64,000 nucleotides of DNA, from assembly GCF_016907675.1 (NCBI RefSeq), contig NZ_JAFBCJ010000001.1:2418001-2482000 (forward strand), read 5' to 3'. Source of the stretch: Geodermatophilus bullaregiensis. Lineage in GTDB: Bacteria; Actinomycetota; Actinomycetes; Mycobacteriales; Geodermatophilaceae. Numbering within the stretch: position 1 is the stretch's first letter; each line of letters begins with the position of its first letter. The position numbers and the translations under genes were made by a program. The notes beneath the pieces are model-generated. The model was not told where the DNA came from and did no database searches. It saw nothing but the letters and a program-made list of their open reading frames with translations. This document shows positions 41,935 to 43,572 of this stretch, one piece after another.

Positions 41935-41988
41935 CCTCCTGCAGGGCCGGCCGCGAGCCTGCGAGCGGTGGGGGACGGGGAGGTCCTC
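41935..41988 (-). repeat. GC hairpin repeat upstream of xth
   Basis: On the minus strand: GAGGACCTCCCCGTCCCCCA, then CCGCTCGCAGGCTCGCGG and CCGGCCCTGCAGGAGGG. It lies in the 266-bp gap between the divergent LCP and xth genes, ending five bases before the xth -10. The gap also holds hairpins CACGGGG-N8-CCCCGTG (41844-41865) and GGTCAC-N10-GTGACC (41874-41895). Confidence 0.7.
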
Positions 41989-42006
41989 TCACTAGTCTCG
42001 GGGGTC

Positions 42007-42810
42007 GTGCGCCTCGCGACCTGGAACGTGAACTCCATCCGCACCCGCGCCGACCGGGTGGCCGCCTGGCTGCAGCGGCGCGACGTCGACGTCCTGGCGC
42101 TGCAGGAGACCAAGTGCCGGGACGACCAGTTCCCCGAGGAGCGCTTCACGGCCCTGGGCTACCAGGTCGCCCACGTCGGCCACTCGCAGTGGAACGGCGT
42201 CGCGGTGCTCTCCCGGGTCGGGCTGGCCGACGTCGAGACGGGCTTCCCCGGGATGCCGACGTGGAGCGCGAAGGAGGGTGCGGAACCCGCCGCCGAGGCC
42301 CGCGCCCTGGGCGCCACCTGCGGGGGCGTGCGGGTGTGGAGCCTGTACGTGCCGAACGGCCGGGCGCTGGGTGACCCGCACTACGACTACAAGCTCGAGT
42401 GGCTGGGCGCGCTGCGCAGCGCGGCCGGCGGCTGGCTGGCCGCCGACCCCGCCGCGCAGGTGGCGCTGGTCGGCGACTGGAACATCGCCCCGCAGGACGA
42501 CGACGTGTGGGACATGAGCGTCTTCGCGCACTCGACGCACGTCACCGAGCGCGAGCGGGTGGCGTTCCGCGCGGTGGTCGAGGCCGGGTACGCCGACGTC
42601 GTCCGGCCGCACGCCCCCGGACCCGGCGTCTACACGTACTGGGACTACACGCAGCTGCGGTTCCCGCGCCGCGAGGGCATGCGGATCGACTTCGTCCTCG
42701 GCTCCCCTGCGTTCGCCTCGCGGGTGACGAATGCCCTGGTAGATCGCGAGGAGCGCAAGGGCAAGGGCGCCAGCGACCACGCCCCCGTGGTGGTCGAGCT
42801 GGCCGACTGA
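42007..42810 (+). CDS. xth: exodeoxyribonuclease III
   Basis: A 267-aa AP endonuclease/3'-5' exonuclease of the ExoIII branch, acting in base excision repair. Motifs: LATWNVNSIRTR (Asn), LQETKC (metal-binding Glu), SLYVPNG (Tyr), VGDWNIAP (Asp/Asn) and the terminal SDHAPVVVEL with the Asp-His pair. GTG 42007 is used: TAGTCT (41993-41998) lies 8 bases before it, so the message is probably leaderless. The stop codon TGA (42808-42810) is also the candidate target duplication of the MITE-like element that begins at the next base, so the insertion lies exactly at the end of the gene. Confidence 0.93.
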   Translation: MRLATWNVNSIRTRADRVAAWLQRRDVDVLALQETKCRDDQFPEERFTALGYQVAHVGHSQWNGVAVLSRVGLADVETGFPGMPTWSAKEGAEPAAEARALGATCGGVRVWSLYVPNGRALGDPHYDYKLEWLGALRSAAGGWLAADPAAQVALVGDWNIAPQDDDVWDMSVFAHSTHVTERERVAFRAVVEAGYADVVRPHAPGPGVYTYWDYTQLRFPRREGMRIDFVLGSPAFASRVTNALVDREERKGKGASDHAPVVVELAD

Positions 42811-43010
42811 CAGCGGTGTGCCGATTGGTTGGCGGCCGTGGCCTCCGACGCCGGCGGTGATGTGCGCTCACGGCTCACTCTGGAGACCAACTGCACCATA
42901 GGCGCACAGTGCTGCAGGTCACGCCTCCCACTGTGGTCAGCCGACCGGCACCAGCGCCCGCCAGCGTGCGAGCCCGGTCCAGCACCTGGCAACCAACGCG
43001 CACACCGCTG
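42811..43010. mobile_element. 200-bp MITE-like element with terminal inverted repeats
   Basis: The left end CAGCGGTGTGCCGATTGGTT (42811 on) and the complement of the right end (43010 back) match at 18 of 21 positions. The element is exactly 200 bp and is flanked on both sides by TGA (42808-42810 and 43011-43013), as for a 3-bp target duplication; the left TGA is the xth stop. The interior is less GC-rich than the surroundings and codes for nothing recognisable. It resembles a non-autonomous miniature transposon. The parent family is not identified, and nothing in the window encodes a matching transposase. Confidence 0.65.
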
Positions 43011-43029
43011 TGAGCCCGCCGCCGGGCGC

Positions 43030-43572
43030 TCAGCGCTGCGCGAGCGCCGCGGACACGACCTCGCCGGCCGGGGGCCGGTCGTCGGGGCTGCGCGGCCGCC
43101 AGACCTCGACGACCGTGCCGTCCACGACGACGGCGTCCCCGCCGAGCTGCCGGGTGTCCTCCCCGGAGGGCCGTGCCAGCCGGGTGCCCGAGCGCAGCGC
43201 CCGCGCGTACAGCGCGAGCGTCCCGGGGTTGTAGACCCGCCACCACGGCGCCCGCCCGATCCCCAGCCGGCGGTACAGCACGCGGCCGGGGTCGCTGAGC
43301 ACCGTGCCGGTGAACCCGGCCCGGCGGACGACCGCGGCCAGCCGGTCGGCCGGGCCGAAGCCGACCAGGACCGGCCCCAGCTCCGGGGCGCCGGCCGCGC
43401 GCACCTCCTCCTGCACCTGGACCAGGTGCTGCCGGCAGGGCAGCTAGTGGCGGTGCCGCATCAGCACGACGACCCGCACGCCCGGCCCGTCGGCCAGCGG
43501 CCGCCCCTGCCCGCGGGGATCGGTCAGGCGGAGGTCGTGGACGTCCACGGCGACTCGTGCCCGGCGCGTCAT
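43030..43572 (-). pseudogene. peroxiredoxin-like (AhpC/TSA) gene with amber codon at the active site
   Basis: One reading frame from ATG 43572 to the stop at 43030 codes for a peroxiredoxin-like protein of about 180 aa but is broken by a TAG at 43444-43446. Upstream it reads MTRRARVAVDVHDLRLTDP to VVVLMRHRH; downstream LPCRQHLVQVQEEVRAAG to LSDPGRVLYRRLGIGRAPW and a normal end. In relatives the line is R-H-F-G-C-x-x-C-R, so the TAG sits where the first, catalytic Cys belongs. TAG is not a selenocysteine codon. The gene is best read as inactivated; a shorter product could start at an internal GTG. It is head-to-head with a second broken gene and next to the MITE-like element. Confidence 0.75.

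Follow-up and report, generated by a model that had tools for sequence, protein, structure and literature searches.

A 200-bp repeat lying exactly at the stop codon of a gene raises the questions of whether it is a mobile element, what could have moved it, and why it settled there. Such a repeat follows xth in the 64-kb stretch of the Geodermatophilus bullaregiensis genome analysed here as a whole (the window), and an initial annotation had described it as a non-autonomous miniature transposon of the MITE type. Its structural details bore scrutiny (Table 1): the coordinates given for the element were exact, its left end is identical to the reverse complement of its right end at 18 of 21 positions, and TGA stands on both flanks, the left one being the in-frame stop of xth. 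The lower GC content of the element was also confirmed (0.70, versus 0.755 for the window), as was its non-coding interior, in which our purpose-written gene caller placed no gene; the open frames crossing the element in the ORF listing of the window do so mechanically. Inverted ends matching at 18 or more of 21 positions are unique to this 200-bp span within the window. By reading, the interior holds a GTGCGC...GCGCAC inverted block. Short (200 bp), non-coding and closed by inverted repeats (18/21), the element has the build of a MITE.

Table 1. Features of the xth locus in the window and of the partner insertion sequences
Feature	Location	Strand	Remarks
MITE element	42811-43010		200 bp; Geodermatophilus bullaregiensis window, genome label G000
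Left TGA	42808..42810	+	Left 3-bp target duplication; xth stop codon, in frame
Left terminal inverted repeat	42811..42831	+	
Element interior	42832..42989	.	Without called gene
Right terminal inverted repeat	42990..43010	-	18/21 match to left end
Right TGA	43011..43013	.	Right 3-bp target duplication
xth, exonuclease III-type gene	41968..42810	+	Pfam Exo_endo_phos PF03372; stop is the target site
AhpC/TSA-like convergent neighbour	43030..43416	-	PF13911; stop 19 bp past the element
Broken partner IS	G000 C1:376556-377625 (L047 2557-3626)		1070 bp; TCA both sides
Intact-looking partner IS	G004, Geodermatophilus chilensis B12 (L055 4844-5889)		1046 bp

The element proved to be repeated. When the single contig of G000 (5,200,084 bases) was searched with the 200-bp sequence, at least 29 matches were obtained at E <= 1e-3, 22 of them spanning 174-204 bp. 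These amount to about 26 copies or fragments scattered over the genome plus one weak scrap, with matches L023 and L024 counted as a single copy interrupted by an IS30-like element, L026 and L028 counted as a single damaged copy, and the 47-bp match L029 (E 9e-4) left out; 40 of 176 first-look candidates having been scored, G000 may hold more scraps. The 19 copies that were aligned, all full-length, have a whole-element mean column identity of 92%, with the interior conserved, and their mean pairwise identity (0.904) and mean distance to the consensus (0.06) suggest that the spread was probably not recent. In relatives, compared as one genome per species, the picture is different. The exact 14-mer TSACAGCGGTGTGC occurs at 30 sites in G000 versus 0 to 4 per genome in 25 congeners; six other species (G009, G011, G012, G013, G015 and G021) have one or two sites each. 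At E <= 1e-3, 12 of the 25 congeners gave matches, all of them short (24 to 58 bp), and none gave a full-length copy; among 111 other genomes of the family, at E <= 1e-5, two had a single match, 31 bp long in one and 45 bp in the other. The multiple copies anticipated by the initial annotation are thus present, and the outcome it had named as fatal, a lone copy whose sequence is conserved in distant relatives, did not materialise. Within the searches made here, the MITE is new by sequence, and its kind is already known.

The flanks of the 26 copies read TGA/TGA in eight cases, TCA/TCA in seven and TGA/TCA in one, and the other ten have TSA on one side only; that is, 15 of 26 show a perfect duplication of fixed length, 3 bp, 16 have TSA on both sides, and all 26 have it on at least one side, in agreement with the variable TGA-like target sites that had been predicted. 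For these counts the edges of six copies (L011, L021, L022, L025, L053 and L153, the same copy as L005) were shifted by 1-6 bases to the expected end, and the TCA of L160 was counted though two altered bases separate it from the search match. Next to TSA, the outer base is in most cases C on the left side and G on the right, giving CTSAG as the empty target. Mixed TGA/TCA flanks, as seen in MITE copy L013 and in the insertion sequence (IS) copies L082 (G. chilensis) and L163 (Geodermatophilus obscurus), are not the product of a clean duplication and count against the explanation that we favour below, as do the ten copies with TSA on one side only.

Empty sites in relatives had also been predicted, and these were found at two other loci, but not at xth. 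All 25 congeners have the gene of the ybbN-like locus (L012), followed by a convergent neighbour whose tail is similar; the two are -4 to 218 bp apart, versus 228 bp in G000, and the first 70 bases read there are free of the element in 25 of 25. At the disA locus (L006), matched in 24 of the 25 congeners, with the neighbour called in 23 of them, a single CTCAG in one relative (L226) occupies the place of the TCA, element and TCA of G000. The gaps after the ybbN-like and disA genes are thus without the element in 25 and 24 relatives, respectively, and the element combines dispersed copies with empty sites. In the bases read after the xth stop, the element is likewise absent in 25 relatives; the right flank could not be recognised by eye there, leaving no readable empty site. 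An ordinary host-derived intergenic palindrome of the REP kind, with TGA at its flanks by chance, would also be mostly intergenic and have palindromic ends, and another palindromic repeat does occupy similar places across the genus; this reading is nevertheless scarcely credible, being contradicted by the empty sites and target duplications and at odds with the exact boundaries, with an IS sharing the same outer ends and with the restriction to one species among the genomes compared.

The second palindromic repeat (AAGGACCCC...CTCGC...GGGGGCC-like, about 55 bp by eye) recurs after the ends of genes in many Geodermatophilus genomes. It was seen in the convergent gaps after disA (L225-L249) and ybbN (L199-L224) and, in the window, at 2286, 13165, 14333, 17697, 31074, 40106 and 48608. 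AAGGACCCCS, with at most one mismatch, occurs 20 times in the window versus 10.2 expected, a number reached in 0 of 100 shuffles. Downstream of xth, a GGGGCACATCTGGGGCACA-like stretch is common to eight relatives (L174, L178, L182, L184, L188, L190, L193 and L196) and is perhaps an integration hotspot.

The statement that the element is not tied to a transposase holds within the window but not beyond it. Elsewhere in G000 we found a broken IS of 1070 bp whose outer ends are those of the MITE (CAGCGGTGTG...), and a transposase gene flanked by such ends, the last of the predicted signs, is present in broken form there and in intact-looking form in G. chilensis. Aligned over bases 1-25, the left ends of the MITE and of the G. 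chilensis IS are identical at 24 of 25 positions (96%); by reading, what the two share amounts to about 25 bp on the left and, at the IS right end, about 7-9 bp, and the right end of the MITE is closer to the left than to the right end of the IS. An autonomous type of element with the same ends therefore exists. The DDE parts of the G. chilensis and G000 copies score 121.6 and 101.6 bits, respectively, on the IS630 equivalog model NF033545 (cut-off 100) and also match PF13358, identifying an IS630-type DDE transposase (DDE_3); the N-terminal part scores 34.6 bits on NF033545, under the cut-off. In the G000 copy the N-terminal frame is broken, and present activity in G000 is therefore unlikely, which counts against the explanation favoured below, as does the shortness of the stretch that MITE and IS have in common. 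The G. chilensis copy, inserted at the stop codon of a gene for a DEAD-box helicase and with TCA on the opposite side, contains two overlapping frames whose junction is a run of A, where they would be joined as in a -1 frameshift. Transposase matches (E <= 1e-3) were present in 8 of 26 genomes of the genus; class-wide, at E <= 1e-25, the IS was found in 1 of 394 genomes, G000 itself, and plasmids and phages gave no match.

Two other candidates for the autonomous element were rejected. A 3.1-kb end pair (G000:C1:1467611-1470723) lacks TSA flanks and has long frames between its ends, among which no transposase was recognised by eye; it was taken as a chance pair. The 1.3-kb interior of L023/L024 turned out to be not a parent transposase but the IS30-like element inserted in that MITE copy (G000:C1 about 3972325-3973645, L159), which matches HTH_38, with rve just below the cut-off, and is named IS30-like by reading. 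A second partial relative of the transposase lies at G000:C1:3762632-3762988 (L066, L162), with no matching ends found nearby.

IS630-family elements, including ISY100, duplicate TA in the available part of PMC2170065, and a title cited there gives CTAG as the IS630 target preference. The partner IS resembles this IS630 / Tc1-mariner group in having a DDE_3 transposase whose DDE part exceeds the equivalog cut-off, and its target resembles CTAG with one extra base (CTSAG); it differs in duplicating TSA (3 bp) rather than TA (2 bp), and we therefore call it IS630-like. TSA duplication is shared by the MITE copies and by related Geodermatophilus IS. The IS1031 group of IS5 has a 3-bp duplication of TNA, similar to that seen here. 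However, the transposase matches IS630 models, and no IS5 model in Pfam or NCBIfam was matched at E 1e-3.

A search of 84,980 species genomes, which reaches close relatives only, yielded 50 loci with related IS. Their ends were anchored on CAGC, replacing an automatic end search that had given mostly chance pairs. With both sides readable, TA was found at L093, L094, L096, L098 and L116, and TSA at L082, L083, L085, L088, L089, L095, L100 and L101 (the right flank before the contig end comprises three bases in L083 and two in L116). Two copies of a Rubrobacter-group IS within the TSA clade (L090 and L092) combine TA on the left with TSA on the right, L104 has TAA on both sides, and L111 (TAA, TAC) and L118 (CTA, TAAG) are best taken as TA. 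When the tree was built from the 19 rows free of stops (the label of four resting on one side only), the seven TA rows were separated, with a support of 100/99, from a group formed by the ten TSA rows and the two mixed ones. An earlier 26-row tree was less clean, requiring six changes by TSA and five by TA, with L102 (TCA, left only) among the TA rows, and L108 (TA, left only) and L104 among the TSA rows. The seven rows dropped between the two trees have stops in translation (L102, L104, L105, L107, L108, L111 and L118), and some of them did not fit one clean TA/TSA switch. L103, L106, L109, L110, L112-L115, L117, L119-L131 and others of the 50, having one end or a partial transposase, stood outside both trees. 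In the 19-row alignment, an arginine shortly after the first catalytic aspartate is present in 12 of 12 TSA and mixed rows versus 0 of 7 TA rows.

As for the position of the copies, 22 of the 26 adjoin an in-frame TGA stop, 21 of these 22 lying between convergent genes (L007 is the exception). Specifically, the gene caller placed 21 within two bases of such a stop, and L008 was added by reading its translation; L002, L005, L010 and L017 lie away from called stops. As background we used 458 kb of G000 (20 stretches plus the window), in which 91 of 204 non-coding CTSAG sites are at stops and 36 are at stops in convergent gaps, leaving out 157 sites inside genes and two stops overlapping another gene; for TSA alone, 272 of 1733 sites are stops. 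Compared with this background, the copies are in excess at stops (22/26 versus 91/204, P 3e-5), at convergent stops (21/26 versus 36/204, P about 4e-12) and, inside convergent gaps, on stops (21/22 versus 36/52 CTSAG, P about 0.003), in binomial tests that assume independent sites and a CTSAG motif learned from the same copies.

The second of these excesses would be expected if the repeats, whatever their origin, had been retained for a function at the 3' ends of convergent genes, as bidirectional terminators or insulators, and the RNA fold is somewhat better than that of shuffled sequences (z -2.09; 7 of 200 shuffles fold equally well). However, none of the 67 predicted pairs shows a compensatory change, Rfam gave no match for the element, a consensus scan of this part of the window, which covers T-tailed hairpins only, found no terminator-like site, and the two orientations at stops are equally frequent (11 versus 11). 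Several copies are, moreover, decayed or truncated, and relatives do without the element after the ybbN-like and disA genes. A compensatory or terminator signature of the terminator/REP kind is thus missing, and fold, pairs, Rfam, terminator scan and orientation gave no sign of a host function, so that we consider such a function quite improbable. The third excess could instead reflect active targeting of stop codons, or of the ends of convergent transcripts, by the transposase or its complex, past the preference for CTSAG. Its P value, however, depends on a purpose-written gene caller as well as on that motif, and purifying selection yields the same pattern. Among related IS in other genomes, a long open frame ends at the duplication in L082, L095, L101, L106, L165, L166 and L168, but not in L088, L089, L100 and more, open-frame length being no proof of a gene on its own. 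We regard active targeting as improbable; most of the stop-codon excess is accounted for by target preference and the loss of deleterious insertions, any further effect being small at most.

Taken together, the copy number, the common ends, the TSA duplication, the two empty-site loci and the lack of full copies in other genomes of the family indicate, with a probability of roughly 0.9, that the repeat is a non-autonomous 200-bp MITE moved in trans by an IS630-like transposase with the same outer ends. The transposase would bind the inverted repeats, excise the element and join it to a CTSAG target by a 3-base stagger, so that TSA would be duplicated. In GC-rich G000 the usual stop would be TGA, and most CTSAG sites inside genes would not tolerate an insertion, which may explain why surviving copies are mostly on stop codons; insertion at a stop would preserve both the reading frame and the stop, and insertion between convergent genes would cut no promoter off from its gene. 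A more far-reaching scenario, in which an IS630-like branch switched from TA to TSA in CTSAG, making TGA stops natural landing sites in GC-rich genomes, and the MITE spread onto the stops of convergent genes by recognising 3' gene ends beyond sequence preference, seems rather unlikely.

Like prokaryotic MITEs as described in the available part of PMC10969869, the element is short, non-coding and multi-copy, with inverted-repeat ends and target duplications, and is mostly intergenic; it differs in that 22 of 26 copies exactly adjoin an in-frame stop that is itself the duplicated target. Searches of largely open-access literature for MITEs at stop codons, for MITEs of Geodermatophilus and for IS630 elements with a 3-bp or TNA duplication gave nothing relevant among the matches listed. 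MITEs are common, and the unusual part is an IS branch duplicating TSA where IS630-family reports, as far as covered by the available part of PMC2170065, give TA. Since the TSA change falls on one supported transposase branch among the intact rows, a change in target and stagger is testable through sister transposases. The stop-codon habit, for its part, shows how, in a genome that is compact and rich in GC, a short target motif can open a niche where insertion does little harm.
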